Source: Actinomadura graeca
Lineage (GTDB): Bacteria > Actinomycetota > Actinomycetes > Streptosporangiales > Streptosporangiaceae
Length of the DNA: 64,000 nucleotides
Direction of reading: 5' to 3'
Assembly: GCF_019175365.1 (NCBI RefSeq)
Contig: NZ_CP059572.1
Span: 5,766,001-5,830,000 of the forward strand
A model generated the notes under the pieces. It was not told the DNA's origin and did not search any database. It was given only the letters and a program-made list of their open reading frames with translations. Both the position numbers and the translations under genes were made by a program. Below are positions 1 through 59,564 of this stretch, in pieces; position 1 is the stretch's first letter, and every line of letters starts with the position of its first letter.

Positions 1-3000
1 CCCGCCCGCAGTGGCTCGTCGGCCGCCGTCGTCGGGACGACGGCCAGGTCACCGAGGGTCCCGGCCCCGCCGGGCTCCAGCCGCCAGCCGGGCTCCGGCG
101 GAGGTGTGAGCCCGCCGTCGGAGGCGGCGCGGGCGAGGCGGGGCGCGTACGCGGTCCCCGCCCGGACGGCGAGCTGCGTCTCACCCGCGGCGACGGCGGC
201 GCCGAGCAGCGCGGGCAGCCCGTCCCATGACGCCTCGGAGCCGTCCACGTCGGCCAGCAGCAGCCGTCCGGGTTCCTCCGCCTGGGCGCTGCGGACCAGG
301 CCCCACAGCGGCGCCGAGTGCAGGCCCGGCACGTCCTCGCCGTCGAGGGCCTGTACGGCGCCGCGGGTCACGACCACCAGGCGGGACTCGGCGAACCGCG
401 GGTCCGCGACCCAGTCCTGGACGAGACCCAGGACACGCGCGACGAGCGGCCGGACGTCCTCGGGCCGCTCCGCCGCGCACGGCAGGAGGACCAGGTCCGG
501 GACGTCGTCTCCGAGCGAGCCCGGATCGGGGTCGTCGGCGTCGAGAACGGCGGCCCGGGGGGCGGTGCCTTCCACGGCGGGCACCGGCGTCCAGCCGACA
601 TGGAACAGCGAGTCATGGTGCGCGGGGCGGGGGGCGAGCCGGTCGGCGGAGACGGGCCGGACGGTGAGGGCCTCGACCGTGGCCACCGGGGCGCCCGCCG
701 GGTCGGCGACGCTCAGGGACAGGGTGCGCGGCCCCGTCGGTGACAGACGCACGCGCAGGGCACCCGCGCCGGTGGCGTGCAGTGTGACACCGGCCCAGGT
801 GAACGGCAGGAGGACCTCCGGTTCGGAGCCCTCGGACGTGTCGGACCGCCCGGCGAAGGCGTCGGCGCCGAGCGCGTGCAAGGCGGCGTCGAGAAGGGCG
901 GGATGCAGGCCGTAGCCGGTGCCGTCGAGACCGCCGGGCGGCGCGATCTCGGCGTAGACGTCGTCCCCGAGCCGCCAGGCGGACCGCAGCCCGCGGAACG
1001 CCGGGCCGTAACCGACGCCGATCGCCTCGAAACGCTCGTACAGGTCACCGGTGTCGAGACGCTCCGCACCGGGCGGCGGCCACGAGCCGGTGTCCGCGTC
1101 GCCGCCCTCGGCTTCCGCGGCCGGGACGTCCGGGCTCAGCAGCCCGGTGGCGTGCAGGGTCCACGGGTCGTCGGACGCGGCGCCCTCCGGCCGCGAATGG
1201 ACACCGACCGGCCGGCGGCCCGACCCGTCCGGGCCCTCGACCCGGACCTGCACCTGGACCCCGCCCTCGTCCGGCAGGATCAGCGGGCTCTCCAGGGTCA
1301 GCTCCTCGACGCGCCCGCAGCCGACCTGGTCGCCCGCCTGGATCGCCAGCTCCACGAAACCCGTCCCCGGCAGCAGGACGGCACCGTGGACGGCGTGATC
1401 CGCCAGCCACGGATGCCCCTGCGAGGAGAGACGTCCCGTCAGCAGCAGCCCATCGGCCCCGGCCAGCCCGATCGCGGCGCCGAGCAGCGGATGCCCGGTG
1501 GGGGCCAGCCCCGCCGACCGCGCATCGGCGGCCGCGGCCCGCGCGTTGATGCGGTACTGCTGCCGCTGGAACGGATAAGTGGGCAACTCCACCCGCCGCG
1601 CCCCCGCCCCCGCCGCCGTCACGGGCCACGTCGGCGCCGCTCCGGACACGTGGAGGCGGCCCATCGCCCCCAAGAGCTCGTCCACCTCGGGACGGTCACG
1701 ACGCTGCGTGGGGACCAGCACGGCCGTGTCGGCCGCGTCGTCGAGGCACTCATGCACGAGCTGGGTCAGTGTGGCGGTGGGGCCGATCTCGATGAAGCGG
1801 GTGGTGCCGTGGTCCTGAAGGGCGCGAACGCCGTCCGCGAAGTTGACGGGTTCGCGGATGTGGCGGGTCCAGTAGTGGGGGTCGGTGAGTTGTTCGGGTT
1901 GGGCGGTGGTGCCGGTGATGTTGGAGATGAGGGGGATGGTGGGCGGGTGGTAGGTGATCTGTTGTGCGGTGTGGTGGAAGTGGTCGAGGACGGGGTCCAT
2001 GTGGGGTGAGTGGAAGGCGTGGCTGACGCGCAGGTGTTTGGTGCGGTGTCCGCGTTCTTTCCAGTGCTGGGTGATGGTGGTGACGGTGGTGGTGTCGCCG
2101 GAGATGACGGTGGTGGCGGGGCTGTTGATGGCGGCGATGGCGACGCCGTGGTGTGTGTTGAGGGTTTCGGCGACGTCGCTTGCGGGGGCTTGGATGGAGG
2201 CCATGGCGCCGTCTGGGGGTGCGGTGTTCATCAGGCGTGCGCGGGTGGTGATGAGGTGGGCGGCGTCGGGGAGGTTGAGGGTGCCGGTGATGTGGGCGGC
2301 GGTGAGTTCGCCGATGGAGTGGCCGATGAGGATGTCGGGGTGGATGCCCCAGTGCTGGAGGAGGCGGGTGAGGGCGAGGTGGAAGGCGAAGAGGGCGGGC
2401 TGGGTGTAGGTGGTCTGGTTGAGCAGGGTGGGGTCGTCGTCGAACATCACCTGCTTGATGGGGTGGTCGAGGTGGGTGTCGAGGTGTCGGGCGGCCTCGT
2501 CCAGGGCGTCGGCGAAGACGGGATAGGCGGTGTAGAGGTCACGGCCCATGCCGGGACGCTGGCTGCCCTGACCTGAGAAGACGAACGCCGTCCGTCCCGG
2601 CACGACACCGCCGAGCACAGTGCCGGTCTCCGGCGCTCCATCGGCCAAGGCCGCCAGCCGAGCCAGGCCCTGGGCCCGGTCGGCGACGATGACGACCGCT
2701 CGCCGGTCGAGGGCCGCGCGGGACGTGGCCAGGGAGAACGCGACATCGGCGGGTTCAAGTTCGGACCTGTCCTCCACGAAGCCCCGTAGCCGGGCCGCCT
2801 GGGCGCGCAGCGCCTCGTCGTCCTGAGCCGCGAGCACCCAGGGCACCGGACCCTCGGCAGGAGTCGCCGGTCCGGTGGCCTCCTCCTCAACGGGCTCGGC
2901 GGCGGGGGCCTCTTCGAGGATCACGTGAGCGTTGGTGCCGCTGACCCCGAAGGACGACACGGCGGCCCGCCGGGGACGGTCGTCGCCGGGCCAGTCAACA

Positions 3001-4298
3001 GATTCCCGCAGCAGCCGGACGTTCCCGGAGTCCCAGTCCACGTGCGGTGTGGGTTCGTCGGCGTGGAGGGTCTGGGGCAGGGTGCCGTGGCGCATGGCCA
3101 GGACCATTTTGATGATTCCGGCGATGCCTGCGGCGGCTTGGGTGTGGCCGATGTTGGATTTGATGGATCCGAGCCACAGCGGGTGGTCTTCGGGTCGGTC
3201 GTGTCCGTAGGTGGTGAGGAGTGCTTGGGCTTCGATGGGGTCGCCGAGGGTGGTGCCGGTGCCGTGGGCTTCGACGGCGTCGATGTCGTGGGGTGTGAGG
3301 CGTGCGTTGGCCAGGGCTTGGTGGATGACGCGTTGCTGGGAGGGTCCGTTGGGGGCGGTGAGTCCGTTGCTGGCGCCGTCCTGGTTGACGGCCGATCCGC
3401 GGATGACGGCCAGGACGGGGTGGCCGTTGCGTTGTGCGTCGGAGAGTCGTTCGAGTAGCACGAGTCCGGCGCCTTCGCCGAAGCCGGTGCCGTCGGCGTC
3501 GGCGGAGAAGGACCGGCAGCGGCCGTCGGGCGACAATCCGCGCTGGCGGCTGAACTCCACGAAAAGGCTCGGTGAGGCCATGACCGTCACCCCGCCCGTC
3601 AACGCGAGTTCGCATTCGCCGTTGCGGAGCGCCTGCGCGGCCAGGTGCAGCGCGACCAGCGACGACGAGCAGGCCGTGTCGACGGTCACCGCCGGGCCCT
3701 CCAGCCCGAACGTGTAGGACAACCGGCCGGACGCGACGCTCGTGGTGTTCCCGGTCAGCAGGTAGCCCTCGACATCCTCCGGGACGTCCGGCTGCCTCGG
3801 CGCGTGCTCCTGGGCGATGACGCCGACGAACACCCCGGTCCGGCTGCCGGACAAGGAGAGCGGGTCGAACCCGGAGCGCTCGAAGACCTCCCAGGCCGTC
3901 TCCAGCAGCAGCCGCTGCTGCGGGTCCATCGCCGCCGCCTCGCGCGGGCTGATCCCGAAGAGGCCCGCGTCGAAATGGTCGGCGTCGCGCAGGAAACCGC
4001 CGTGCCGCGTGTACGTCCGGCCCGGACGGTCGGGGTCCGGGTCGTACAGCTCGCCGACGTCCCAGCCCCGGTCCGACGGAAAGGGCGAGATCCCGTCCCC
4101 GCCCTCGGAGAGCAGCCGCCACAGTGCCTCAGGTGAGTCCGCCCCTCCGGGGTAGGAGCAGGACATCCCCACGATCGCGATCGGCTCGGCGCTCCTTGCC
4201 TCGATGTCGCTCAGCCGCCGCCGGGCCTGCCGCAGGTCGGCCATCGCCCGCCTGAGGTAGTCGCGGAGTTTCTCCTGGTCGTTCATCTGGGAATGCAT
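1..4298 (-). CDS. Type I modular PKS (PKS-C), partial: start of module 6, KS-AT-DH-ER...
   Basis: The 5' end of a polyketide synthase gene whose 3' part runs off the left edge. It starts at ATG 4298; a second in-frame ATG at 4286 is possible. The first ~35 residues form a charged helical N-terminal docking domain ([17 protein letters not shown]), matching the C-terminal docking tail of the gene upstream. The KS follows, with catalytic Cys near residue 210 in DTACSSS. The AT has GHSIGE and HAFH (about residue 759), the signature for malonyl-CoA. The DH has an intact [10 protein letters not shown] motif (about residue 967). At positions 105 down to 1 the frame reads [19 protein letters not shown], the usual opening of an enoylreductase, so the module is predicted to be fully reducing. 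Part of the KS and the AT are nearly identical in DNA to other modules here (see findings). It lies 34 bases after the PKS-B stop and is presumably co-transcribed. Confidence 0.96.
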
Positions 4299-4332
4299 CA
4301 CTCGGCCCCGTCGGATCGTTCGGTCATCGGAT

Positions 4333-15839
<11,507 letters not shown>

Positions 15840-15872
15840 GCGGTGTCGGTTCCTTCCAAGGGGGCGGAGGTG

Positions 15873-34811
<18,939 letters not shown>

Positions 34812-34903
34812 CGGTGCGAACCTCTCGCGGTGAACGGCGGTCCTGCCATGGCCCTCAGGTTGCTGGGACGAGCTAAAGATCACCCTTGAGAAGACCTAAA
34901 AGG
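34812..34903 (-). promoter_or_regulatory. Leader and candidate promoter region of PKS-A
   Basis: Upstream of the PKS-A start lie GAGAGG (the ribosome binding site) and, on the minus strand, TTAGGTC (34899-34893). CAAGGGT (34888-34882) sits exactly 11 bases further on. TTAGGTC also occurs in the candidate promoter of the tetronate operon at 40187-40193. The second heptamer matches poorly (AGG only), so a shared activator site is only a suggestion. No convincing -10 is visible. Confidence 0.3.
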
Positions 34904-34925
34904 CGGTGGCATCCGGGACCACGGC

Positions 34926-34983
34926 GGCCGGCGCGCCGGCCCATGCGCCAGCGCCCCCGGGGCCGGAAAACGCCCTCGGGGGC
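34926..34983. repeat. 16-base perfect palindrome and a GC-rich inverted repeat between the hydrolase gene and PKS-A
   Basis: GGCCGGCGCGCCGGCC at 34926-34941 is its own reverse complement. Next to it GCCCCCG (34953-34959) and CGGGGGC (34977-34983) form a 7-bp stem with a 17-base loop. No T-run follows on the transcribed strand, so an intrinsic terminator is unproven. An operator or an attenuating hairpin in the PKS leader is equally possible. Confidence 0.4.
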
Positions 34984-34986
34984 CCG

Positions 34987-35056
34987 TGCTTCGGGAGCGG
35001 TGCTTCGGGAGCGGTGATTCAGGGACGATGCTTCGGGAGCGGTACTTCAGGGATCA
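34987..35056. repeat. Five tandem 14-base units at the 3' end of the hydrolase gene
   Basis: Three identical units TGCTTCGGGAGCGG (34987-35000, 35001-35014, 35029-35042) are interleaved with two diverged ones, TGATTCAGGGACGA (35015-35028) and TACTTCAGGGATCA (35043-35056). The last unit contains the stop codon of the alpha/beta hydrolase gene. The array fills most of the 3' untranslated stretch between the tetronate genes and PKS-A. Confidence 0.9.
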
Positions 35057-36163
35057 GAGGGCGGGACGGGCCGGGGTGAGCCGGTTGCGCGCCCGCTGCG
35101 CACGGAGCAGCGCGCCGAGCGCGGCGCGCTGCGGACGGTGCGTGCCGCCCAGCTCCAGGAGCGAGCGGACGATCCACAGCCGGGTCTCGACGAAATGCCG
35201 GGGCGACCCGTGGACGTCGTCGTTCTCGATGAGGCGCAGGTCGCGGACGTGACGGCGCAGCAGCTCCGTCTCCGAGGCCGGGATGATCTCGTCCCGGCGG
35301 CTGGCCATGTAGTGGACGGGCACGTCCAGGGCGGCGAGCCGGTCGCCGTCCAGTGCCATGCCGCGCAGATGTCCGTGGACGTCTCCGGACGAGACGTCGC
35401 TGATGTGGGCGAGCGTGTCGATGGTGATGCGGGGCACCTGCCGCTGCCAGGCGGCGTCGGTGAAGAACCCGCCGACCGGCGCGCCCACCGTGATGACGCC
35501 CCGGATCCGGGGATCGCCGGCGGCGCACCCGAGCGCGAGGTGGCCGCTGAAGCTCAGCGCGACGGCGTAGGTCCGGGCGGTGTCGGCGCGGTCCGCCACG
35601 GCGTCCAGGATGCGCGGCAGCAGCTCCCGGCTCCCCGGGCCGTACCGGGCCATGTTCTCGCCCACCCCCGGCATCTCCGCGACGACACCGGCCAGGCCGA
35701 GCTTGCGCGCCTGCGCCAGCACGGGCGCCCACTGCTCCTTGACGCTGACGATCCCGCCCATGACCAGCAGCAACGGGCGGCGGTCACGTGCGTCGAGGCC
35801 GGTCGTCCAGCAGCGGACCCGCGCGCCGCCGGGGCCGTCGTCGAGGTCGACGTCCAGGCGCTCGATCCCCGTGCCGTCCCGCCACCGGTCGAACGCGGCG
35901 ACGCACCGTTCGAGGGCGTCCTGCCGGGCGGGCCCGTCGACGTAGGGGAAGCGGGCCATGTTGTAGCGCCGGCAGGCGTCCAGGTACCGGCCGCGCCGCT
36001 CCAGCGCCGTCCCCGCGCCGACCCACGCCCGCACCCACGAGCCGGGCTCGTCCCCGTCGTCGGACTCGACGTGCCGCAGGATCGACTGGTGCTCGCGTCC
36101 CGGGATGCCCTGCGCGCGGGCGTGCACGAGCACGAACCGCTTCAGTTCCGCGATGTCGTTCAC
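35054..36163 (-). CDS. Alpha/beta hydrolase of the tetronate cassette (AbyA5-like)
   Basis: 369 residues; its ATG overlaps the stop of the acyltransferase gene by four bases (ATGA). An N-terminal helical part (to ~residue 125) precedes an alpha/beta-hydrolase fold of the FrsA/DUF1100 type. The nucleophile elbow is at residues 203-208 (LSFSGH), with Ser206 as likely nucleophile; the usual first Gly of GxSxG is Ser204. Asp291 (SRRDEIIP) and His318 or His323 are candidate acid and base. In agglomerin and abyssomicin, the enzyme at this place (Agg5/AbyA5) eliminates acetate from the acetylated hydroxymethyl-tetronate to give the exocyclic methylene used as dienophile. That role here is inferred from gene order and family. 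Confidence 0.85.
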   Translation of the reverse strand: MNDIAELKRFVLVHARAQGIPGREHQSILRHVESDDGDEPGSWVRAWVGAGTALERRGRYLDACRRYNMARFPYVDGPARQDALERCVAAFDRWRDGTGIERLDVDLDDGPGGARVRCWTTGLDARDRRPLLLVMGGIVSVKEQWAPVLAQARKLGLAGVVAEMPGVGENMARYGPGSRELLPRILDAVADRADTARTYAVALSFSGHLALGCAAGDPRIRGVITVGAPVGGFFTDAAWQRQVPRITIDTLAHISDVSSGDVHGHLRGMALDGDRLAALDVPVHYMASRRDEIIPASETELLRRHVRDLRLIENDDVHGSPRHFVETRLWIVRSLLELGGTHRPQRAALGALLRAQRARNRLTPARPAL

Positions 36164-36936
36164 CGGGGGCCGTCCTCTGCGGGCGCCTTGAACGACTCCA
36201 GCCCGTCCTTGATCTCCGCCAGCACGTCCGCGGCCTCCGCGCCGTCGATGACACGGTGGTCGAAGGCGAGGCCGAGCCGCATCGTCGGCGCGACCACCAC
36301 CCGCCCGTCCCGCGCCACCGGACGGTCGGCGACCCTGCCCAGGCCCAGCGTGACCGTGGTGCCGCCCACCGAATGGAACCCGTCGACCGGACGGTGCCCC
36401 AGCGACGTCACCGCGAAGGTGCCGAGCCGGTCCGCCCGGCCCCGCAGCGGCCGGACCACCCGCCGGAAGGCCACACGGCCCACCGGCACCGGCAGCCGGT
36501 GCAGCGCCCGGAGCCCGGCGAACTCCTCCATCCCGGCCGGGTCGCCGTCCCGGTACCGCTCCACCTGGCGTTGCAGCTCGTCCAGCCCCGCCTTGTCGGC
36601 GTCCCGCAGGACGGCCGAGAGCACCACCCGCCGCCCGTTCAGCGTCTTGTCCAGCGTGATCTTCGCGTGGACGCCGGGATAGCGGGCGAGCCGGGGGTTG
36701 AGCCGCCCCCGGACGGCGGCGTTGGCGTCGGGATGGCGGGCCAGGACCCGCGCCGCCGTGTGGACGGCGTACGTCACCGTCGAATAGTGCCGGTCCGCGG
36801 ACGCCCGGTGCGCGGCCAGCTCGGTCATCTCCACCTCGGTGTCGAGGAAGACCGGCGCGAACGCGCGCACCTCGTCCAGGAAGTACAGGGTGTGCCGGCG
36901 CTCCCGGGGGAGCGGCGTCACGGACGGGCCGGTCAT
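36160..36936 (-). CDS. 2-oxoacid dehydrogenase E2-type acyltransferase of the tetronate cassette (AbyA4-like)
   Basis: 258 residues with ATGA overlaps at both ends. It is only the catalytic domain of the E2/chloramphenicol-acetyltransferase fold, with no lipoyl or peripheral-subunit-binding domain, so it cannot be a normal dehydrogenase-complex subunit. The catalytic motif FDHRVIDGAEAA is intact (His227, Asp231, Gly232). In agglomerin and abyssomicin the homologue (Agg4/AbyA4) acetylates the primary hydroxyl of the tetronate, making acetate the leaving group for the next enzyme. Function here is by family and context; the acyl donor (presumably acetyl-CoA) is not visible from sequence. Confidence 0.88.
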   Translation of the reverse strand: MTGPSVTPLPRERRHTLYFLDEVRAFAPVFLDTEVEMTELAAHRASADRHYSTVTYAVHTAARVLARHPDANAAVRGRLNPRLARYPGVHAKITLDKTLNGRRVVLSAVLRDADKAGLDELQRQVERYRDGDPAGMEEFAGLRALHRLPVPVGRVAFRRVVRPLRGRADRLGTFAVTSLGHRPVDGFHSVGGTTVTLGLGRVADRPVARDGRVVVAPTMRLGLAFDHRVIDGAEAADVLAEIKDGLESFKAPAEDGPR

Positions 36937-37160
36937 GCCGCCACCGCCACCTGGTAGATGGCCGCGAGGCTCCCCGCCTCCAGCAGGTCGGGCAGCACCA
37001 GCCCGCGGCCCGTCGCCCGCTCCAGCGCCCCGGCGAGGGCCAGCAGGTGCACCGAGTCCCAGCCCGCGACCTCGTCCAGGCTCCGTTCCGCGTCGGCGGA
37101 TGTCACCTCCAGTCCCAGCTCGTCCCGGACGAGGGTGAGGAAGTCGTCGATCGTGGTCAC
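36933..37160 (-). CDS. Stand-alone acyl carrier protein (glyceryl-ACP carrier, AbyA3-like)
   Basis: 75 residues, overlapping both neighbours by ATGA. The phosphopantetheine attachment Ser36 lies in GWDSVHLL, in the usual acidic helix context. It is a free ACP, unlike the ACPs inside the PKS proteins. Placed between the FkbH-like protein and the acyltransferase, it is expected to carry the glyceryl thioester made by its FkbH neighbour and present it to the KASIII-like enzyme for tetronate formation. Confidence 0.93.
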   Translation of the reverse strand: MTTIDDFLTLVRDELGLEVTSADAERSLDEVAGWDSVHLLALAGALERATGRGLVLPDLLEAGSLAAIYQVAVAA

Positions 37161-39085
37161 CGTGTCTCTCCTCCCAGGCCGTCGATCAGCCGCAGGTGCG
37201 CGGGCGCCGCGGCGATGGACCGCAGGTCGTGCCGGAACTCCGCCGCTCCACCGTCCCCGTTCCCGCCGTCCCCGGTTTCGTCGTGGTCGTCCACGCCGTC
37301 ACCGCCCACGCGGCGGAAGCCCTGCCGCGGGTAGAAGTCGCGGACCTTGCCGTTCTTGGCGGTCGGCCGGTAACCGGCCAGCACCGCCGTCGCGTCGGTC
37401 GCCGCCGCGTGCCGCAGGACGGCTGCCAGGCACGCCTGCTCGATCCCCCGGGAGAAGACCCGGCAGCTCAGCAGGAAGTTGTCGATGCGCAGGACGGATC
37501 CGTCCCGGCGCAGGAACACCGCGCCGACCAGGCCGTTGTCGCCGAACCGGTCGGCGGAGTGGACGGCCAGCACGGACGCGTCCGGATCGGCGGCGAGGGC
37601 GCGCACGTCCGCCGGCTGGAGCCGCCGCGTCGTCAGGTTGAACTGGTTGGTCCGCAGCGTGAGCTGTGACACCCGCGGGACCTGCGCCTCGGTCACCGGC
37701 TCCAGCCTGACCCGCACGTCCAGCTCGGCGAGATAGCCCTCCAGCGAGTCGAAGGTGTCGAGGAAGTCGCGGCGGGCGAGGTCCTCGCGGTAACGCGCCG
37801 GGCGCGCGCGGTCCTCGGCGGTCAGGTCGCGGGAGTCGAACCAGCCGTCGGCCAGCAGCCGCCCGGCGTGCAGCGCGGGCTCCCCGTCCAGGTCGATCAC
37901 CGCGACGCCCGGCAGCTCCCGCCGGACCAGGCCCCGCTCGAAGTCGCTGTCGTCGGCGAAGACGAGCGAGTCCACGCCGATGTTGAGGCCGCGGGCAAGC
38001 TCGGCGAGGTTGTCGTGCTTGGGCCGCCAGTTCGCGACGACCCGCACGAAGTCGTCCTCACGCAGCACCATCCCGGGATGCTCGCGCAGCACCTGCCGGA
38101 CGGGCTCGGGGTCGTTCTTGCTCACCGCGGCCAGCAGCACCCCTTGGGACCCGATCTGCTTCACGGTCCGCTGGAAGGCGCTGAACGCCTCGCCCCTGCG
38201 GCCGTCCCCGACCTCGATGCCCTCCGGTCCGTCGTCGCCCAGCACCCCGCCCCACAGGGTCCCGTCCAGGTCCACGACCAGGCACTTCTTGGTACGGCCG
38301 GTGAGGTGGCGGGCCAGATGCCCGATCTCGCGCGCGTACCGGCCGAGCAGCTCGGCCGACAGGTGCATCCGGGCGTACAGGTCCATCCGCGGGTCGGTGA
38401 CGGGGATGCCCTCGGCGACCAGCGCGTCCAGGTCGATCGTCACCAGCGACTCGTGCGCCTCGGACAGGCGCAGCAGGGCCGCGCCGGCCTCCCGCCAGGC
38501 CGCGCCGAGCCGCGCGCGGGAGCGGTGGTCGGTGAGCTGCGCGGTGAACTGCGACGGCAGCGGGAGCGTGTTGAGGACGAGGGTGCCGCGCGCGGTGCCG
38601 GTGAAGCGCCCGGCGAGCCCCTCGATCAGGCGGAGCTTGCCCGCCAGCACGCGTTCGACGTCCTCGGGACGCCAGGGCGCCGCGACCTCGTCGAACACCA
38701 CCGCCGGGTCCAGCACGCAGAGGGCGAGGTCGGGGTCCGCCGCGTACAGTGCGCTGCCGGGGTCGGACAGCTCGAAGACGTAGCCGTCGAAGTCGCCCGC
38801 GGCCGGCCGCAGCAGCAGCCCGTGCCGGGCCAGCTCGGCGGTGAGGGCCGGGACCAGCGGGGCGAGCGTCCCGTGCCCGGTGATCGCCACCGTGACGGAC
38901 GGGACCCCCGGATGGGACCGGGCGACCTCGTCGGGGTCCAGCCGGGACAGCAGCCGCCCGGCGTGCGCCAGCTCCCCGGCGTCGAGGCCGGTGAGCAGCC
39001 CCGGCACCTCCGGGTACCGTTCCGCCAGCCGTCCCGACCGCAGCCACGCGGAGATCTGCCCGATGCCCGTGGGCACGGCGCCCAT
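37157..39085 (-). CDS. FkbH-like HAD-family glyceryl-ACP synthase (AbyA2-like)
   Basis: 642 residues. The frame is open further upstream, but ATG 39085 is chosen because it overlaps the KASIII stop as TGATG, the same coupling pattern as the rest of the operon. The HAD motif is VVDLDGTLWGG (Asp272, Asp274), followed by the conserved VSKND and DDSDFER segments. A GNAT-like C-terminal part follows (about 470-630), giving the usual FkbH architecture. The N-terminal ~260 residues match the long-form FkbH proteins. The family dephosphorylates 1,3-bisphosphoglycerate and loads glycerate onto a dedicated ACP. The C3 unit becomes the tetronate ring carbons. Confidence 0.93.
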   Translation of the reverse strand: MGAVPTGIGQISAWLRSGRLAERYPEVPGLLTGLDAGELAHAGRLLSRLDPDEVARSHPGVPSVTVAITGHGTLAPLVPALTAELARHGLLLRPAAGDFDGYVFELSDPGSALYAADPDLALCVLDPAVVFDEVAAPWRPEDVERVLAGKLRLIEGLAGRFTGTARGTLVLNTLPLPSQFTAQLTDHRSRARLGAAWREAGAALLRLSEAHESLVTIDLDALVAEGIPVTDPRMDLYARMHLSAELLGRYAREIGHLARHLTGRTKKCLVVDLDGTLWGGVLGDDGPEGIEVGDGRRGEAFSAFQRTVKQIGSQGVLLAAVSKNDPEPVRQVLREHPGMVLREDDFVRVVANWRPKHDNLAELARGLNIGVDSLVFADDSDFERGLVRRELPGVAVIDLDGEPALHAGRLLADGWFDSRDLTAEDRARPARYREDLARRDFLDTFDSLEGYLAELDVRVRLEPVTEAQVPRVSQLTLRTNQFNLTTRRLQPADVRALAADPDASVLAVHSADRFGDNGLVGAVFLRRDGSVLRIDNFLLSCRVFSRGIEQACLAAVLRHAAATDATAVLAGYRPTAKNGKVRDFYPRQGFRRVGGDGVDDHDETGDGGNGDGGAAEFRHDLRSIAAAPAHLRLIDGLGGETR

Positions 39086-40116
39086 CAAACCCGCTCCAAC
39101 GCGAAACCCGCCTTGATCCACTTACTCGACTCGACCGCGATGCCGACCACCCGGTCGCCCTGGTCGAGCAGGCGCAGCGCGGGCTCCAGCTGGAAGAACA
39201 GCAGCCCGTTGCCGCAGTTCCCGGTCTCCTCCACGCAGGCGATCTCCTCCGCCAGCGGCAGGTCCAGCCGTGCGCCGATGCGTTCGCTCATCCGGCCGGA
39301 GAGCTGCGGCGGCAGCACGTAGTCGACGTCGGACGCCTTCCAGCGCAGATCCGCCAGCAGCTCCTCAAGGATCTCCGCCGACATCCGCGGGACCGACTCC
39401 TCGATCGCCTTGTAGTCCTCCGCGACCGCCGCGCGCCGCGACTCCCGCTCGGCCAGGCCGAACCACTCGACCGTCTGGCCCGCGGCGCGGCCCCGCCCGG
39501 TGAACCTGGTCAGCACCCGGCGGACCGCCACCGAGCCGGGCGGCGCGTCCGCGGTGAGCACCGCCGCCCCGGCGCCGTCGCCGAACAGCACCACGTTCAC
39601 CAGCTCCGCGGGCGCCATGGCGCGCAGGTCGGCACCGAGGTCGAAATGCTTGGCGCAGCTGTCGCCCGCGATGACCAGGGCCGTGCGGTGCCCGCCCGCG
39701 AGCAGCGCGTGCCGGGCCACCTCCAGCGCCTGGACGGCACCCGAGCAGCCGCTCTGCAACTGGTAGGTCGGGATCCCGTCGATCCCCAGCCGGTCGGCGA
39801 TGACGTTGACCGTCGTCGGCATGAGGGTGTCGGGCGTCGCCGTCCCCATCACCACCACGTCGACGTCGGCGGCCCGGAGCCCGGCGGCGTCCAGCGCCCG
39901 CCGCGCCGCCCGCTCGCCCAGATCGGCGAGCGTGGACCGGATCTCGCCGGTGCCGAGATCGACCGACAGATGCCGGGTCCGGGTGCCGATGAAGACCTCG
40001 ACCCACTGCTCCCACAGCGCGTCCATGCCGAAACGCCCGGCGAGCTCTGCGTTGGTCACCGGCGGGCCGGGCAACGCCGTCCCGGCCGACAGGATACGGA
40101 TGTCCGACGCGTCCAT
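39085..40116 (-). CDS. KASIII/FabH-like tetronate-forming synthase (AbyA1-like)
   Basis: 343 residues. The start is ATG 40116 rather than the longer frame to 40176, because AGGGGAGGA sits 7 bases upstream. It has a thiolase fold with catalytic Cys124 in QSGCSGAVQA and Asn300 in ETGNCGNG. At the place of the FabH PHQxN histidine the protein reads LPPQLSG, so His is replaced by Pro270. The C-terminal GGGFTWG loop of FabH is replaced by ESSKWIKAG. In tetronate pathways this family joins glyceryl-ACP to the beta-ketoacyl chain by one C-C and one C-O bond, releasing the polyketide as a hydroxymethyl-tetronate. It is the first gene of the operon and is probably driven by the promoter at 40163-40193. 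Confidence 0.92.
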   Translation of the reverse strand: MDASDIRILSAGTALPGPPVTNAELAGRFGMDALWEQWVEVFIGTRTRHLSVDLGTGEIRSTLADLGERAARRALDAAGLRAADVDVVVMGTATPDTLMPTTVNVIADRLGIDGIPTYQLQSGCSGAVQALEVARHALLAGGHRTALVIAGDSCAKHFDLGADLRAMAPAELVNVVLFGDGAGAAVLTADAPPGSVAVRRVLTRFTGRGRAAGQTVEWFGLAERESRRAAVAEDYKAIEESVPRMSAEILEELLADLRWKASDVDYVLPPQLSGRMSERIGARLDLPLAEEIACVEETGNCGNGLLFFQLEPALRLLDQGDRVVGIAVESSKWIKAGFALERV

Positions 40117-40162
40117 CCCCGGTTCCTCCCCTGGGGTCGAACAGGCTTGCGCATCGCCGCAC

Positions 40163-40193
40163 ATCCTGTCCGGCACGCCTAAACGTGACCTAA
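40163..40193 (-). promoter_or_regulatory. Candidate activator-dependent promoter of the tetronate operon (SARP-like heptamer repeat)
   Basis: On the minus strand TTAGGTC (40193-40187) and TTAGGCG (40182-40176) form a direct heptamer repeat with an 11-base period. CAGGAT (40168-40163) follows 7 bases later as a possible -10. Direct heptamer repeats with ~11-base spacing about 8 bases before the -10 are the known arrangement for SARP activators. No SARP gene is in the window; the only nearby regulator is the LAL protein. The site is inferred from spacing alone. Confidence 0.4.
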
Positions 40194-40231
40194 GAGCCCC
40201 CCGGGACGGACGCCCGGCCGGGCCCGGCGAT

Positions 40232-40307
40232 CAGCCGGACCCCGCCATCGGCCGGGCTCCGCCGGACGTCCGTCAGCCGGACTCGGCCATCAGCCGGACT
40301 CGGCCAT
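40232..40307. repeat. 17-base direct repeat around the LAL stop codon
   Basis: CAGCCGGACTCGGCCAT occurs at 40274-40290 and again immediately at 40291-40307, with a diverged copy (CAGCCGGACCCCGCCAT) at 40232-40248. The duplicated unit encodes the last residues of the regulator (LMAES), so a second copy of its C-terminal codons lies just past the stop. Confidence 0.85.
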
Positions 40308-43160
40308 CAGCCGCGCGAGCGCCGCCCGCGAGCTGATGCTGAGCTTGCGGTAGATGCGCGTCAGATGGACGTCGACCGTCCGCGGGCTCAGGGAGAGCGC
40401 GGCGGCGATCTCGCGGGTCCGCAGCCCGGTCCCCGCGATGCCGGCGATCTCACGCTCCCGCTCGGTGAGGACGGACAGGTCCGCGTGTGGCGCCGCCTCG
40501 GCGGTGCAGGTGTCGAGATCCCGCAGCAGCCGCTCCGCCGCCTCCGCCGCCCGGTCGGCGCCGCAGCGGCGTGCCAGCTCCCGGGCCAGGACGAGGTTGG
40601 AGCGCGGCTCGTGGCGTGGGACGTCCCGGGAGAGGTCGTGCGCGGCCAGCAGGAGCGCCCTCGACTGCGCGTGGATCATCCCGGCCTCGGAGAAGAGGTC
40701 GGCGGCCTCCTGATAGGCCGCGGCGGCCTCCGCGGAGCGCCCCTCGTGCTTCAGCATCATGGCCCGCGCCACCCGCGCGTAGGCGCGCGGCGACGGCAGG
40801 TCGAGCCCCGCCGCCTCCTCCTCGGCGAGGTCCGCGCACTTCGGGAGCGGCTCGCCGACGGCCAGCGACGCCGCGAGGATCAGCGTCAGGGCCTGCACCC
40901 GCTGGAACGGCGGGATGCGCGGCAGGTCGCTGCCGCCCCCGGCGTCGAGCAGCAGGATCATGGACCGCCGCGGGCCGCCGTCGTACCAGGCCGCGGCCGC
41001 CACCGCGATCGCCCCCGCCATGCTCCAGAAGAAGTCCCGCGAGCGCAGGATGAAGAACGCCTGCTCCGCCAGGCGCACCGCCGTCTCGCTGACCCCCTCG
41101 CCGGTGCCCTCGGCCATGGCGAGCGACTCCAGCGCCAGCGCCAGGCCGGACAGGTGCTCGGCGTTGAAGCGCTCGGCCAGCTCCCGCGCCTCCACGGCCG
41201 TCCGCCGCGCGTCCGCCAGGTGCCCGGTGTGCCGGTGGACGTTGCCCAGGCCGAGGAGCATGGCCGGGAGCATGAAGCTGCGTCCGAACTTGCGCGCGAT
41301 GTCCATGCCGCGGGCGAAGTGCCGCTGGGAGTCCTGGAAGAGCCCCGCCAGGGTCTCGGCCCACCCGAGCAGCCCCAGGTACTCGGGGCGGGTCGCCAGC
41401 TCCGCGTCCGACAGCCGGTCGATGTACTCCGACCCCGCGGCGAGCGAGGCGCGGGCCGTAGGAACACTGTTGAACGCGTCGCAGAGCCCGTTGAGGACCA
41501 GGGCGCCCGCCTCGGCCACCCGGTCCCCGTGCCGCCGCGCCAGCCGCACGGCGGACTTCACCTGCTCGCAGCTCGGCATCTGCCCGTCGAACGCGCCGAT
41601 GATCCCGTGCTCGATCAGCAGGGTCGCCGCCTCGGCGGGCGGGTTCTCGCAGGTGAGGATGGTGTCCAGCTCGCCCGCGAGCAGCGCCCGCGCCTCCGCG
41701 AAATGCCCGAGCAGGCATTCGATCACCGCGCAGAACGCCACCGTCGAGGCACGCAGGTCGCGGTGATCGTCACCGACCGCCCGCAGCACCTGGTGGAGCA
41801 GGTCGCGGCTCTCCGACAGGCGTCCGGCCAGGCCCAGCGTCCGGCTGCGCAACAGCAGCAGCTCGATCCGCTTGCGCGGCTCCATCCGTCCCTCGGGGAA
41901 CGCCTGGAGCGCGACCTCCAGCCAGTGCGACGCCCGCTCGGGGTCGGTGAGCAGGGCTTCTTCGGCGGCCCTCGTCAGGATGTCCAGGTCCGGCGTCTCG
42001 GCGCGGGCGATCGAGCGCTCGACGTGCACGGCCTGCTCCGCCGTGGACGCCCCGCGCTTGGCCAGCGCCGTGAGCGCCTTGCGGTGGGCGCACAGCCGCC
42101 AGGTCAGGTCGGCGTTCGCGTAGACGACCCACCGCATGATCGGATGCCGGAACGTGAAGCCCGCGCCGCCGTTGGCGGGACGCAGCACGTCCCGGGCGAT
42201 GAGCGCGTCGACCGCCTTCTCGACCTCGCCCGGGCCGATCTCCGCGACCTCGATCAGGGTGTCCATCACGCAGTGCTCTCCCAGCACCGCCGCGGCCGCC
42301 GCGACGAACGACTCCCGCGTGTCCAGCGCGGCGATCTCCCCCAGCAGCAGGCCCGACAGGTGCGCCGGGGGGTCGCCGGACGGCAGGCCGCCGTTGAGCG
42401 CGTGGCCGTCGGCGGCCAGCGCCGACAGGTACAGCGGGACACCCCCGCTGGCCATGTGCAGTTCCGCGAGCCTCGGCTCCCCGCAGGGCATGCCGAGCAG
42501 CCGCGCCGACTGCTCCAGCGACAGCGGCCCCAGTTCGATCCGCGTCACCGAGCCCAGCTCGATACCGTGCGCGAGGGTGCCGCGCAGCCGCGGGGACGCC
42601 TGCCGCGGCCGGTGCACGATCATGATCAGCAGCGGGCCGTCCACCGGCCGCCGGACGAGGTAGTCGATCAGCTCGACCGACTCGGCGTCGGCCCAGTGGA
42701 AGTCCTCGATGACCAGGACGACCTTCTCCGACAGCCCCCCGAGCAGGGTGCGTATCGAGAACGACAGCCGGTAGCGGTGCCAGGCCGCCGGCCGCTCGGA
42801 CTCGGCGCACCCGGTCTGCGGGCGCGTCACGACCTTGCCGATCAGGTTGCGGTCGTCGGCGGGCAGGCGCAGGAGCCGCTCGGTGATCGGCCTCGCCGCC
42901 AGCAGATGGGCGAACACCTGGTACGGGATGCCCTGCTCGAACTCGGTGCAGCGGGTGTGGAACACCCCGAAACCGCGGCGATGCGCCTCGCCCATCATCT
43001 CGGCGAGCAGCCGGGTCTTGCCGATCCCCGGCTCTCCCACCAGCTCGATGATCTGGCCCTGCCCCTGGTCGAGCGCGTCGAGCGCGCCGTGCAGCCGCCG
43101 CGTCTCGCCGTGCCGGACGACTTCCGATCGTGATCGCGCTATGGATTGTGTACGGCCCAT
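40290..43160 (-). CDS. LAL-family LuxR transcriptional regulator, likely cluster-specific activator
   Basis: 956 residues. The P-loop is GEPGIGKT (residues 42-49), a Walker B-like VVLVIEDFHWAD follows, and there is a long helical/TPR-like middle. The C-terminal LuxR helix-turn-helix is TEREREIAGIAG...TREIAAALSLSPRTVDVHL. The start is ATG 43160; a TTG one codon earlier (43163) has better spacing (8 bases) from GGGAGG. LAL regulators commonly control polyketide clusters, and two (AbyH, AbyI) occur in the abyssomicin locus. Here it is the outermost gene of the cluster, 173 bases upstream of the tetronate operon on the same strand. Direct binding to the operon promoter is not shown. Confidence 0.95.
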   Translation of the reverse strand: MGRTQSIARSRSEVVRHGETRRLHGALDALDQGQGQIIELVGEPGIGKTRLLAEMMGEAHRRGFGVFHTRCTEFEQGIPYQVFAHLLAARPITERLLRLPADDRNLIGKVVTRPQTGCAESERPAAWHRYRLSFSIRTLLGGLSEKVVLVIEDFHWADAESVELIDYLVRRPVDGPLLIMIVHRPRQASPRLRGTLAHGIELGSVTRIELGPLSLEQSARLLGMPCGEPRLAELHMASGGVPLYLSALAADGHALNGGLPSGDPPAHLSGLLLGEIAALDTRESFVAAAAAVLGEHCVMDTLIEVAEIGPGEVEKAVDALIARDVLRPANGGAGFTFRHPIMRWVVYANADLTWRLCAHRKALTALAKRGASTAEQAVHVERSIARAETPDLDILTRAAEEALLTDPERASHWLEVALQAFPEGRMEPRKRIELLLLRSRTLGLAGRLSESRDLLHQVLRAVGDDHRDLRASTVAFCAVIECLLGHFAEARALLAGELDTILTCENPPAEAATLLIEHGIIGAFDGQMPSCEQVKSAVRLARRHGDRVAEAGALVLNGLCDAFNSVPTARASLAAGSEYIDRLSDAELATRPEYLGLLGWAETLAGLFQDSQRHFARGMDIARKFGRSFMLPAMLLGLGNVHRHTGHLADARRTAVEARELAERFNAEHLSGLALALESLAMAEGTGEGVSETAVRLAEQAFFILRSRDFFWSMAGAIAVAAAAWYDGGPRRSMILLLDAGGGSDLPRIPPFQRVQALTLILAASLAVGEPLPKCADLAEEEAAGLDLPSPRAYARVARAMMLKHEGRSAEAAAAYQEAADLFSEAGMIHAQSRALLLAAHDLSRDVPRHEPRSNLVLARELARRCGADRAAEAAERLLRDLDTCTAEAAPHADLSVLTEREREIAGIAGTGLRTREIAAALSLSPRTVDVHLTRIYRKLSISSRAALARLMAESG

Positions 43161-49004: not shown

Positions 49005-52000
49005 ATGATGAGACGGGTCGGCCGCGAGAGACCGTGGTCGCGCGGCCTGGCCATAGCGCTGATCGCGGTGCTGGCCGTCCTGGGCGCCCCGGCCGCGCCG
49101 CCCGCACGCGCCGTCATCAACGGTGAAGCGGCCTTGGCCTCCTGGGGGCAGGTCGAGGTGCTGCTGGATGGAAACTACAGATGCACCGGAACGCTCATCG
49201 CGCCGAACTGGGTCCTCACAGCAGCGCACTGCGTGCCCGCCACAGGGACCATTTCGGTTCGGGTCGGCGGCAGAGTCCGTGGCCTCGGAGCGCACATGGA
49301 CGTGAGACGCAATGTGCCGCATCCCAACACCGATGTCACCCTGCTTCAGCTCGACACTGCGGTGGGTTGGAACGCGGGCATTGCCTACGACGACACCCGC
49401 AGGCCGCCGATCTATCAGCAGGTCGAGATCCACGGCTTCGGACCGACCGAGCCCGGCGGTGTGCCGGCGTTGGAGCTCAGAACCGCCAGGCTCGAAGTGG
49501 AGCTGAACCGCGCTGTGCCGCCCATGCGCGATTGGGGCCCCGACGGGGCGCTGCTGCAGATGCAAGGGGTCCGTGGCACCCCCCTCCAAGGTGACTCCGG
49601 CGCCGGTGTGATCCGTAACGGCAGGCTCCAAGGGGTTTACGTCGGCCTCCATGGCCCGCAGCAGTTCGCGGTAGCGCTGCAGGCCATTCAGGGATGGATC
49701 TACCAGCAGACGGGGGTGCGGCCGGCGGACACCACCGAACGGATAGATGATCTGGGGGTCATGCCCCTGGGCGACGTCCGCATCCAGGGCCTCGGCAGCT
49801 CGCATGGATCCGGCTTCCGCGACGAACTGCGCCGCAGGACGATCAACGAGGTCCACAGCTTCGACTTCGTCGGCTCGCAGCGGTCCGGGCAGACGCCCGA
49901 CCCCGACCACGAGGGCCATCCCGGCGCGACGATCAGCGAGATCGCGCGCAGGGCCGATACCGCGGTCCCGCAGTACAAGCCCAATGTCGTCCTTCTCAAC
50001 GCCGGGACCACCGACATGGAACGCGGCGGGATCGCCGGCACCGCCGCCGAGCTGGGGTCGTTGATCGACCAGATTCTTGAGGACGCCCCCAAGGCCACGG
50101 TGCTGGTGTCCACGCTGGCGCCCGCACGGGTCGAGGCCGTCCAAGAAAGGATCACTTCCTTCAACAAGCAGATCCCAAGCGTGGTCGCGCAGCGGGCGAG
50201 AGCCGGCAAGCACGTCGGCCTGGTCGACATGCGCGAGATCACGACCGACGATCTGACCGGCGACGGCCTGAACCTCAATGACCGCGGGTACACCAAGATG
50301 GCCGAGGCGTTCGACTCCGCCATCGAAATGGCATCGGCCCAGAACTGGATCGTCGGCCCCCGTAACGAGCAGCGGTACGCCTACCGCGCCATGCCGCTGG
50401 GGTCATCGACCACCTATGGCGAGAAAAGCTCGGACGGAAACGGCTACCGAGACGTCCTCGACCAGGGTTTGCAAGACCTGGCCGAACGCAACGGCGGGGA
50501 GACCGGCGAGGGGGGCACCAAGGCCAAGCTCATGAACGACACCGACGACACCCCCCAGGTGGACATGGTGGGCTCGGTCCGGGCCGGCCGGATGGCGGAC
50601 AGGGACAACGAAGGCTGGCGGGGACGCAAGATCCATGAGATCGCCGACAAGGCCAGCTGCTCCGTCAAGCTCTACAAACCCAACATCATCACACTCATCG
50701 CGGGCGGGAACGACGTCAACCAGAACTATCAAATGGACGGCGCGATCGGACGGCTGGAATCGCTGATCAGGCAGATCAGCAAAGACGCCGATAACACCCT
50801 CGTGCTGGTGGCCGGAGTACAGCCCTACCCCGACCCGGCCTGGGACGCGCGGGGCAAGTCCTTCAACGCCAAGATCCCCGGCCTGGTGGAAAAGCTCGGG
50901 GACGAGGGTGTGAACGTCATGTGGGTCGACACCGGACTGCAGCTGTCCGACATCGGCCCGGACGGCAACCATCCCACCGACCAGGGCTACGACAAGATCG
51001 GCGCGGCGTTCGTCAAGGCGGCCAACGAGGCGAATGGGCAGGGACGGCTCGTCGATCCTGTTTACCAGAAATCCGAAGAGGTGTCCGACGCCTGCGGCAT
51101 AACCGACGATGGCACAGGCACCGATGACAAGAGCTCCAAACTGGGCCCGCACTGGGAGGACCGCGGGGTCATCCAGGCCAAACAGTTCCCCTCCAGCGAC
51201 AAGTTCTGGCTGGTCGACATCAACCAGGACCGCAAGGCCGAGTTCGTCGCGGTCGACAAGAACCAGAACTTCCGGTTCTGGTGGAACGGCGGCCCGTCCG
51301 GTAAGGCCTGGGTCCCCTTTGTCGAAGGCCAGAACTCCTACAAGCCCCGGACCGGGGCGGTCGGCAATCAGTTGCGGTTCGGTGACCTCGACGGCGACGG
51401 CTTTCCCGACTGCATGGTCGTCGACCTCAAAGGCACCGTGGACCTGCACACGTGGAAGGCCGACAACCCGTCCGGCTCACGCATGTGCATGGAACCCCGC
51501 GACAACACCCACGTCTACTCCAACGGTTCCGCGGGAGAGCGGCTGAACATCGACCCGAACACCAAGATCCGGTTCGCCGACGTCACCGGCGGAGGCCGCG
51601 ACGACTATCTGCTGATCAAGCCGGACGGCTCGACGACCGCCTGGTACAACCGGGGTTTCGCCACCGAGCGGCAACTGAACTTCCTGGACTGGACCCCTCC
51701 CCAGCAGATCAGCGGCGCTCTGCAAAACCCCAGAGAGATCAGGTACGCCGACATCAACGGTGACAAGCGCGCCGACCGGATCCTCATCACCCTCAAGGGC
51801 GGCGCCAGGGCCTGGATCAACGAAGGGCCCAGAGGCTCGGGCGGCACCTACCGCGACATCGGCAAGATCGCCGATGACGGCGACCTGCCGCCCAAGGACA
51901 TCCAGTTCGCCGACCTCGACGGAGACGGCAAGGCCGACTTCGTGCGCATCGGCTGGACCGGAGTCACCCACGCCTGGCTCAACAAACTCCCGGCCAACTA

Positions 52001-52022
52001 CTTCGACACCTTCCACCCATAG
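49005..52022 (+). CDS. Secreted trypsin-like protease fused to two SGNH-hydrolase domains and an FG-GAP repeat region
   Basis: 1,005 residues with a Sec signal peptide (RR..., hydrophobic 15-28, cleavage near PARA-V, residue 36). Residues 37-235 form an S1 trypsin fold with His75 (LTAAHC), Asp110 (NTDVTLLQLD) and Ser198 (GDSGAG), so the protease looks active. Residues ~252-445 and ~460-675 are two SGNH/GDSL-type hydrolase domains. In the second, MPLGSSTTYG (Ser467), GGND (569-570 region) and DGNH (Asp653, His656) are intact. The first has lost all three. Residues ~705-1000 carry five FG-GAP/VCBS-like calcium-loop repeats (such as FGDLDGDGFPD and FADLDGDGKAD), a likely beta-propeller that binds substrate or the cell surface. 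A strong terminator follows. The substrate is unknown; a secreted esterase/protease acting on polymer or host material is possible. Confidence 0.95.
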   Translation: MMRRVGRERPWSRGLAIALIAVLAVLGAPAAPPARAVINGEAALASWGQVEVLLDGNYRCTGTLIAPNWVLTAAHCVPATGTISVRVGGRVRGLGAHMDVRRNVPHPNTDVTLLQLDTAVGWNAGIAYDDTRRPPIYQQVEIHGFGPTEPGGVPALELRTARLEVELNRAVPPMRDWGPDGALLQMQGVRGTPLQGDSGAGVIRNGRLQGVYVGLHGPQQFAVALQAIQGWIYQQTGVRPADTTERIDDLGVMPLGDVRIQGLGSSHGSGFRDELRRRTINEVHSFDFVGSQRSGQTPDPDHEGHPGATISEIARRADTAVPQYKPNVVLLNAGTTDMERGGIAGTAAELGSLIDQILEDAPKATVLVSTLAPARVEAVQERITSFNKQIPSVVAQRARAGKHVGLVDMREITTDDLTGDGLNLNDRGYTKMAEAFDSAIEMASAQNWIVGPRNEQRYAYRAMPLGSSTTYGEKSSDGNGYRDVLDQGLQDLAERNGGETGEGGTKAKLMNDTDDTPQVDMVGSVRAGRMADRDNEGWRGRKIHEIADKASCSVKLYKPNIITLIAGGNDVNQNYQMDGAIGRLESLIRQISKDADNTLVLVAGVQPYPDPAWDARGKSFNAKIPGLVEKLGDEGVNVMWVDTGLQLSDIGPDGNHPTDQGYDKIGAAFVKAANEANGQGRLVDPVYQKSEEVSDACGITDDGTGTDDKSSKLGPHWEDRGVIQAKQFPSSDKFWLVDINQDRKAEFVAVDKNQNFRFWWNGGPSGKAWVPFVEGQNSYKPRTGAVGNQLRFGDLDGDGFPDCMVVDLKGTVDLHTWKADNPSGSRMCMEPRDNTHVYSNGSAGERLNIDPNTKIRFADVTGGGRDDYLLIKPDGSTTAWYNRGFATERQLNFLDWTPPQQISGALQNPREIRYADINGDKRADRILITLKGGARAWINEGPRGSGGTYRDIGKIADDGDLPPKDIQFADLDGDGKADFVRIGWTGVTHAWLNKLPANYFDTFHP

Positions 52023-54615: not shown

Positions 54616-55323
54616 GTGGATGAGATCGCGCCCGGCCTCACCCGGGACCACCTCCACCCCTTCGCGGACCTGGCCCGCGTGAACCTGAAGACTGCGGACC
54701 TGACCGACGTGAACCTGCATGGCGTTAACCTGACCCAGGCGGACCTCAGCTATGCGAACCTGCGTGGAGTAGACCTCACGCGCACGGACCTGAGCCGCGC
54801 GAATCTGGCTGGCGCGAATCTGAGAGACACGCGCCTGGTCGGCGCGAACCTGAAAGGCGCGCAACTGCGCGATGCCGATCTGACCGCCGCAGACCTGACC
54901 GGCGTGCACTTGACCGACCTGGACGATGGGTCCTTGCGCTCAGCCGAGCTGTCCAACACGTATCGGAGCCGAAGCTCGAACCGCGCGAACCTGAGCCGCG
55001 CGAACTTGACCGACACGAATCTGAACGGCGCGATCCTGACCTGCGCAAACCTCTACGGCGCGATCTTGGTTCGTGCCAGCCTGATCCTCGCGGACCTGAG
55101 TGACACGAACTTGACCGAGGCGGATCTGACCGGCGCGGATCTGACCGACACGAACCTGACCAGCGCGACGCTGGAAACCGATGCGACCCTGGAGGGAGTC
55201 CGATGGAATTCCGGGACGCTATGGCCGTTCAACATGGCCGAGTCGATGCGGGTCCGGTCGGATGAGAGAGCGCCAGAGGTGTGGGTGGTCAGAGCCGCCA
55301 TCGCACCCGATGGGGTCAGGTAA
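54616..55323 (+). CDS. Pentapeptide-repeat protein
   Basis: About 235 residues if it starts at GTG 54616; the frame is open to 54373 and no start has a good ribosome site. Residues ~17-195 consist of A(D/N)LXX pentapeptides (DLTDVNLHGVNLTQADLSYA and so on), interrupted once by DDGSLRSAELSNTYRSRSSN. They predict a right-handed quadrilateral beta-helix. A short C-terminal tail (WNSGTLWPF) follows. Such proteins include DNA mimics that protect gyrase (Qnr/MfpA), but most have unknown roles. No partner gene is adjacent. Confidence 0.85.
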   Translation: MDEIAPGLTRDHLHPFADLARVNLKTADLTDVNLHGVNLTQADLSYANLRGVDLTRTDLSRANLAGANLRDTRLVGANLKGAQLRDADLTAADLTGVHLTDLDDGSLRSAELSNTYRSRSSNRANLSRANLTDTNLNGAILTCANLYGAILVRASLILADLSDTNLTEADLTGADLTDTNLTSATLETDATLEGVRWNSGTLWPFNMAESMRVRSDERAPEVWVVRAAIAPDGVR

Positions 55324-58268: not shown

Positions 58269-59540
<1,272 letters not shown>

Positions 59541-59564
59541 GTGACCAGCGTGCATCATGGCCGT

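Follow-up and report, generated by a model that had tools for sequence, protein, structure and literature searches.

A conserved Actinomadura gene cluster that likely makes a decalin tetronate, with no canonical spirocyclase found in or near it

The DNA considered here is a window of 64,000 nucleotides from Actinomadura graeca (G000:C1:5766001-5830000, the whole stretch that was analysed, in a genome of 8.98 Mb and 3 contigs), and the subject is the polyketide gene cluster at its left end and the rings that its product may form. Window positions 1-43160 hold a LuxR gene, five tetronate genes and polyketide synthase (PKS) genes. The cluster reaches left beyond the window, with 10.7 kb of PKS (genome 5755279-5766000) and tailoring, export and import genes extending to about 27 kb, and this left flank was also analysed, with genes called by a simple codon-usage script and domains assigned by Pfam and motif reading. 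Genome coordinates on contig C1 are converted to window positions by subtracting 5766000. Genomes are labelled with G numbers, G000 being the source genome, G024 A. macra and G020 A. litoris, all three of the same genus. The features of the cluster, from right to left, are as follows.

Window 40290..43160, minus strand: g35, large LuxR-type regulator (AAA_16/GerE), 89-92% identical in A. macra and A. litoris
Window 39085..40116, minus strand: g34, tetronate synthase resembling 3-ketoacyl-acyl carrier protein synthase III (KASIII)
Window 37157..39085, minus strand: g33, FkbH-like glyceryl-acyl carrier protein (ACP) synthase (TIGR01686)
Window 36933..37160, minus strand: g32, free-standing ACP (PP-binding)
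Window 36160..36936, minus strand: g31, 2-oxoacid-dehydrogenase-type acyltransferase (PF00198), which we take to be AbyA4/Agg4-like
Window 35054..36163, minus strand: g30, putative hydrolase fold, from a weak FrsA-like match below the cut-off and the gene position; presumably AbyA5/Agg5-like
Window 15873..34811, minus strand: g29, PKS loading module with a KSQ-type ketosynthase (KS), and modules 1-3
Window 15683..15839, minus strand: docking domain and first residues of the module 4 KS (KS4), in a frame that differs from the rest of the gene
Window 4333..15387, minus strand: g28, PKS modules 4-5 as called; the same frame is open further upstream
Genome 5758575-5770298 (window part 1..4298), minus strand: g27, PKS modules 6-7
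Genome 5755279-5758539, minus strand: g26, PKS module 8
Genome 5753602-5755164, plus strand: g25, second flavin adenine dinucleotide (FAD) protein
Genome 5752112-5753605, plus strand: g24, FAD protein of the PyrE3 superfamily
Genome 5751227-5752048, plus strand: g23, short-chain dehydrogenase/reductase (SDR)
Genome 5750754-5751230, plus strand: g22, SnoaL_2/NTF2-fold protein
Genome 5750517-5750750, plus strand: g21, ferredoxin
Genome 5749270-5750520, plus strand: g20, cytochrome P450
Genome 5747971-5749017, plus strand: g19, luciferase-like monooxygenase
Genome 5745753-5747948, plus strand: g18, major facilitator superfamily (MFS) exporter
Genome 5739170-5745653, minus strand: g17 binding protein, g16 permease, g15 amidohydrolase, g14 permease and g13 ATP-binding cassette (ABC) ATPase

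Genes encoding KASIII, FkbH, ACP, acyltransferase and hydrolase proteins (the hydrolase g30 by a weak match) lie beside a modular PKS without a thioesterase (TE), which is the arrangement of a tetronate PKS and bears out the tetronate polyketide proposed in the initial annotation. The loading module reads KSQ(DSAQS)-AT(HAFH)-ACP, where AT is the acyltransferase domain. With dehydratase (DH), ketoreductase (KR) and enoylreductase (ER) domains, modules 1 and 2 (M1, M2) read KS-AT(YASH)-DH-KR-ACP, M3 and M4 KS-AT(HAFH)-DH-KR-ACP, M5 KS-AT(YASH)-DH-ER-KR-ACP, M6 KS-AT(HAFH)-DH-ER-KR-ACP, M7 KS-AT(YASH)-DH-KR-ACP, and M8 KS-AT(HAFH)-ACP, with neither reductive domains nor a TE. HAFH marks a malonyl AT, YASH a methylmalonyl AT, and xDD a B-type KR. 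The HxxxGxxxxP and D...H motifs are intact in all seven DHs, the KR motif is LDD, IDD or VDD in all seven KRs, and GGVGMAA occurs in both ERs. The outcomes predicted for M1 to M8 are a methylated alkene (Me-ene), Me-ene, ene, ene, Me-saturated, saturated, Me-ene and unreduced, and the domain reading predicts the chain CH3-CH=C(Me)-CH=C(Me)-CH=CH-CH=CH-CH2-CH(Me)-CH2-CH2-CH=C(Me)-CO-CH2-CO-. Together with the glyceryl C3 unit and an exocyclic methylene, this chain amounts by arithmetic to C25H32O4, with an unoxidised mass of 396.2301. The module order and chain first read from the window are confirmed by the same domain string, and the further modules anticipated to the left are present as M7, with the expected DH, and M8; a thioesterase ending devoid of tetronate logic, named beforehand as evidence against the spirotetronate reading, was not seen.

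Counterparts of all genes from g13 (importer) to g35 (LuxR) are present in A. macra, including a ferredoxin found by tblastn at 86% (the ferredoxin and SnoaL genes are merged in the gene call), and A. litoris has counterparts of all of them except g25. The PKS proteins share 80-84% identity with their counterparts in these two species, the remaining proteins 83-97%, and the module string is identical in both, the A. macra KSQ motif being unmatched by the search pattern. Among the 22 loci obtained from a scan of named genomes, only A. macra was close, and the next best reached 43%. A cluster from another genus of the same family (G512) shares the eight-module order and AT motifs, its module 7 DH motif being unmatched by the pattern; its five tetronate genes are 67-76% identical, and LuxR, luciferase-like and importer genes are also present. 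However, no P450, ferredoxin, SnoaL or SDR gene above thresholds lies within 100 kb in G512, whereas the source cluster has all four. The domain string is more than a chance arrangement, because it recurs in two other species (at 80-97% protein identity) and in another genus. In A. macra, about 10.8 kb without a match to cluster genes (G024:C6:742904-753714) separates the hydrolase and loading-module genes, which are adjacent in the source strain and A. litoris.

Chain positions are given here in nomimicin numbering. The C10-C13 diene would come from M3 and M4. M5 and M6 would build the saturated tether C6-C9, methylated at C8, and M7 would place a C4=C5 dienophile, methylated at C4, beside the acyl tetronate. 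By this domain reading the chain has the diene, four-atom tether and tetronate-adjacent dienophile that characterise class II spirotetronates, and the four saturated atoms that the initial annotation took for a decalin tether correspond to the two ER modules, M5 and M6, between the diene and the Me-ene of M7. The single methyl that it had placed on the decalin part becomes two once module 7 is counted. According to PMC8404215, C14-C17 separate the decalin from a C18-C21 diene in nomimicin, and the nomimicin macrocycle is called the smallest of its class. Here there is no spacer between the decalin diene and the spiro diene: M1-M4 give one uninterrupted tetraene, in which C14 is the first atom of the terminal dimethyl diene. 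If the regiochemistry were unchanged, spiro closure would produce a ring of 7 atoms (C2, C3, C4, C13, C14, C23 and C24), compared with 11 in nomimicin by the same count.

Spirocyclases of the AbyU/PyrI4 type contain the allene-oxide-cyclase-like barrel PF18678, and the search for such a cyclase to the left, suggested in the initial annotation, gave a negative answer: no PF18678 is encoded in or near the cluster, nor in the whole genome of A. litoris. In the source genome, one match exceeds the cut-off, at 8114809 and 2.3 Mb from the cluster. This gene is broken and of the secreted type, its start resembles a signal peptide and no cluster query genes lie beside it; it was rejected as a spirocyclase. 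A PF18678 gene 18 kb left of the LuxR gene in A. macra, with no tetronate or PKS homologue between them, was not counted in the cluster. Among 65 genomes of the genus, PF18678 exceeds the cut-off in 15, secreted-looking proteins included, and FkbH homologues of at least 64% identity are present in 18 (23 at E 1e-60); PF18678 was found in 13 of those 18, as against 2 of the 47 others, secreted-looking proteins again being counted. As a positive control, PKS homologues lie beside PF18678 genes in five of eight stretches (G056, G058, G033, G049 and G035, the last with ACP and acyltransferase homologues too), the three without them being those of G000, G006 and G024. In a set of 12 genomes checked, eight have no PF18678. 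Two spirocyclase-like PF18678 proteins, L109 (G039:C5:178651) and L111 (G035:C11:177746), have signal-peptide-like N-termini; L111 lies inside the tetronate cluster of G035, which would suggest an exported cyclase.

The best Protein Data Bank match of g24 is ChlE3, followed by Tmn9, 4k5r, OxyS, TedJ and PyrE3, whereas g25 matches ChlE3 and then 4k5r and other oxygenases. With ChlE3, TedJ and Tmn9, g24 shares fold family, length and 45-48% identity. In an IQ-TREE phylogeny of 37 rows, which did not include PyrE3 itself, ChlE3, TedJ and Tmn9 form a cyclase clade with eight genomic rows (support 100/100). The PyrE3-like cyclase anticipated to the left is represented by a protein of the right superfamily, but one outside this characterised clade, and at E 1e-110 neither the source genome nor that of A. 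litoris yielded a closer ChlE3-like or cyclase-clade protein. Of the two FAD genes, the A. litoris cluster contains g24 but lacks g25. Because g24 alone among the FAD proteins is shared by the three Actinomadura clusters, it is most likely the decalin-closing enzyme, and it is a good candidate for a cyclase. The designation spirotetronate in the initial annotation, on the other hand, is unsupported, because spacer modules and PF18678 are absent and neither FAD protein belongs to the clade of characterised cyclases; its tetronate, chain and decalin tether stand.

The cluster product is likely a decalin tetronate. With moderate confidence, we propose a C25 3-acyl-5-methylene-tetronate in which one intramolecular Diels-Alder reaction, most likely steered by g24, gives a dimethyl trans-decalin bearing a dimethylhexadienyl chain. 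Glyceryl-ACP would offload the chain as a tetronate, and g31 and g30 would acetylate and then eliminate, leaving the exocyclic methylene. The C10-C13 diene would add to the C4=C5 dienophile across the saturated C6-C9 tether, with g24 probably directing the closure. The P450, working with the ferredoxin, may then oxidise the product, perhaps by epoxidation as reported for TedH; g20 adjoins the ferredoxin gene, and P450 homologues of 62-68% identity with a ferredoxin also stand beside g24-related genes in G082 and G271. Since no beta-barrel cyclase was found, a canonical enzyme probably does not join the remaining C14-C17 diene to the tetronate. The proposal is also in line with the FAD protein of the cyclase clade that G512, whose modules are the same, encodes at C43:241285-242673, and with the FkbH homologues of at least 60% identity in the six other genomes whose g24-clade proteins are in the tree.

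Several observations weigh against this proposal. The IQ-TREE phylogeny places g24 in its own clade of 11 rows (100/100), separate from ChlE3, TedJ and Tmn9, and the branch that unites the g24 and cyclase clades with six other rows apart from g25 is weak (81/67), a similar branch receiving 0.914 in a FastTree analysis of a larger set. Identity of g24 to OxyS and to ChlE3 is equal (48%). PMC12380092 and PMC13273814 describe the His74 site as docking to substrate in PyrE3, ChlE3 and TedJ; g24 has Pro there, as do 87 of 114 g24-like database rows (His in 26, Ala in 1), and the 13 cyclase-clade rows have His in 11, Arg in Tmn9 and Phe in G033. In addition, g24 retains the H-x-R and QGLN residues of monooxygenases. 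All 13 cyclase-clade rows have lost the H-x-R Arg, common to 4k5r and OxyS, whereas 10 of 12 g24-clade and all five g25-clade rows retain it. The idea that g24 belongs to every one of the four clusters with the eight modules was not upheld, the G512 FAD protein 51% identical to g24 lying outside the g24 clade; retention of g24 is seen in the three Actinomadura clusters. Finally, the M4-M5 gene of the source strain is frame-broken, as described below.

The retained monooxygenase residues, the Pro at the His74 site, the separate clade and the coexistence in G512 of a g24-like protein with a cyclase-clade one are consistent with g24 and g25 both being oxygenases, in which case decalin formation would be non-enzymatic or would not take place, and an oxidised acyl tetronate would result. 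We regard this as unlikely. Loss of NADPH-site arginines is taken as a sign of cyclase function in PMC7489565, yet the Mad10 sequence printed there, from a cyclase-type family member, keeps the H-x-R Arg. Likewise, the G033 protein belongs to the cyclase clade and lacks His74, and the tether geometry is kept although the source genome and A. litoris have no cyclase-clade protein at the threshold given above. A set of residues called universally conserved in PMC13273814 was dropped as a cyclase test, TedJ being without His97 in the alignment.

A contracted class II spirotetronate, in which, once the decalin has closed, the pendant C14-C17 diene and the exocyclic methylene form a spirocyclohexene within a 7-membered carbocycle, through a non-barrel enzyme (g22 or g25) or none, also appears improbable. 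It accords with the dimethyl diene with its terminal methyl and with the methylene-forming gene pair, both as in class II pathways, and g22 has an enzyme-like NTF2 fold (AlphaFold mean predicted local distance difference test score 87.8) and is kept at 83-84% identity in A. macra and A. litoris and at 55% in G028. However, the nearest structures to g22 are isomerase-like YesE, engineered digoxigenin binders of NTF2 fold, PhzA/B and limonene epoxide hydrolase, none of them a cyclase, and the best 50 matches of the fold search comprise only generic NTF2 relatives. The absence of g25 from A. litoris speaks against the other candidate, as do, for spiro closure itself, the missing spacer modules and the missing barrel in a genus that has such genes beside PKSs. 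More speculative still is a scenario in which independently recruited g24-clade flavoproteins, perhaps with an NTF2-fold partner, take the place of the canonical ChlE3-type and beta-barrel Diels-Alderases and close the rings of the spacer-less chain to give a new fused 7-membered spirotetronate skeleton.

The M4-M5 gene is broken near window 15.69 kb, the docking domain and KS4 start (15839 to ~15683) lying in a different frame from the rest, which is called from 15387. Its orthologue is a single open frame of 3855 aa in A. litoris and of 3836 aa in A. macra, and the break is either an assembly error or a recent lesion. That a real break at KS4 stops modules 4-5 and leaves the cluster dead in the source strain is very improbable: the displaced docking domain and KS4 start and the unbroken orthologues allow it, but motifs are intact in the other PKS domains and single-base assembly errors are a common source of such breaks.

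The proposed decalin tetronate follows the logic of tetrodecamycin, in which, according to PMC12380092, a tetronate is acyl-linked to a trans-decalin that arises when a diene reacts with a tethered dienophile; an FAD protein and a P450 take part in that pathway. The present cluster likewise has a decalin-capable chain, a tetronate set, a P450 and no spirocyclase, whereas a TedJ-clade FAD cyclase is lacking and g24 lies outside that clade. Compared with the ted module count, as reported, and the C18 formula that tetrodecamycin is said to have, two extra Me-ene modules are present here, giving the pendant dimethylhexadienyl chain, and the decalin would carry a second methyl. The class II compounds chlorothricin, kijanimicin and nomimicin share the C4-C13 decalin logic with C4 and C8 methyls and a similar methylated spiro diene; the source cluster differs from them in having no spacer modules, no PF18678 spirocyclase, no ChlE3-clade enzyme and a fully reduced tether. 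For class I (abyssomicin type), the expected PF18678 is absent from the cluster, and the chain contains the decalin pair. On the domain reading, the product would be a stretched relative of tetrodecamycin, with a skeleton between tetrodecamycin and the spirotetronate antibiotics.

Named products were also considered. Nomimicin was rejected on size (C30 in PMC8404215), and so was kijanimicin, whose PKS has a loading module and 11 modules, compared with eight extension modules here. Spirohexenolide, reportedly of equal carbon number, is a doubtful match: the two ER modules speak against its polyene, and, judged by title, none of the papers listed under this name deals with its gene cluster. As in the initial annotation, no named product could be matched: among the titles and abstracts listed in searches of Creative Commons (CC)-licensed literature, none describes a product of this skeleton, nor is either A. 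macra or A. litoris given as the source of a tetronate, subscription journals and MIBiG lying outside the search.

Close relatives of g24 are rare, occurring at E 1e-130 in 7 of 394 genomes sampled at class level and 8 of 298 sampled at family level (samples that include the source genome itself). Among 13 groups of stretches examined, six contain a g24-clade protein (G028, G226, G271, G332, G411 and G591); all six genomes have an FkbH homologue of at least 60% identity, and in five a tetronate gene lies within the fetched stretch, the FkbH gene of G411 being on another contig. Several of these contigs are short, and partner genes may lie out of sight. PF18678 is absent from six of nine g24-clade genomes (G020, G028, G226, G271, G411 and G591); of the others, PF18678 is of the secreted type in G000 and G024, and G332 has two, on another contig with another FkbH gene. 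In contrast, PF18678 exceeds the cut-off in eight of the nine genus genomes with a cyclase-clade protein (G033, G006, G058, G013, G018, G038, G039 and G035, but not G057). FAD proteins outside the g24 clade are found in G512, G583, G039, G082 and G217, with an additional cyclase-clade protein in G512 and G039; the G033 protein is of the cyclase clade, and G012 is an unplaced 3.5 kb contig. The genomes of G082 and G217 contain no FkbH match, and the interpretation of the six-module G082 locus as a tetrodecamycin-like cluster was withdrawn on that ground. This PKS (G082:C1:249611-286650; L085, L086 and L166) ends in Me-sat, sat, Me-ene and keto modules and is accompanied by a g24-related FAD protein, a P450 and a ferredoxin.

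The chain thus predicted has both reactive pairs of class II spirotetronates, and neither canonical cyclase type was found in the cluster. The cluster therefore lends itself to testing directly whether the flavoproteins of the g24 clade, which accompany tetronate genes in several families of actinomycetes, represent a second Diels-Alderase lineage or oxygenases, and what becomes of an acyl tetronate whose two dienes are joined. It also predicts a skeleton of an antibiotic class (C25H32O4 core), for which no name was found, in species with named strains (A. macra NBRC 14102 and A. litoris).

Among neighbouring genes, an oligopeptide-type ABC importer with its binding protein and the luciferase-like monooxygenase (C1:5739170-5749017) are found together with tetronate or g24-type genes in five other genomes, those of A. 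macra and A. litoris as well as G028, G271 and G512, and the importer permease and ATPase with the luciferase-like gene also occur in G035. A second large modular PKS region lies elsewhere in the source genome (G000:C1:8744548-8823854), with a KASIII-type gene at 8819778. Further right in the window, one protein joins trypsin, GDSL-lipase and FG-GAP domains (49068-52022, plus strand), a pentapeptide-repeat protein is encoded at 54616-55323 (plus strand), and positions 58269-63451 encode a P450, a member of the dienelactone-hydrolase family and another large LuxR regulator, the second in the window.

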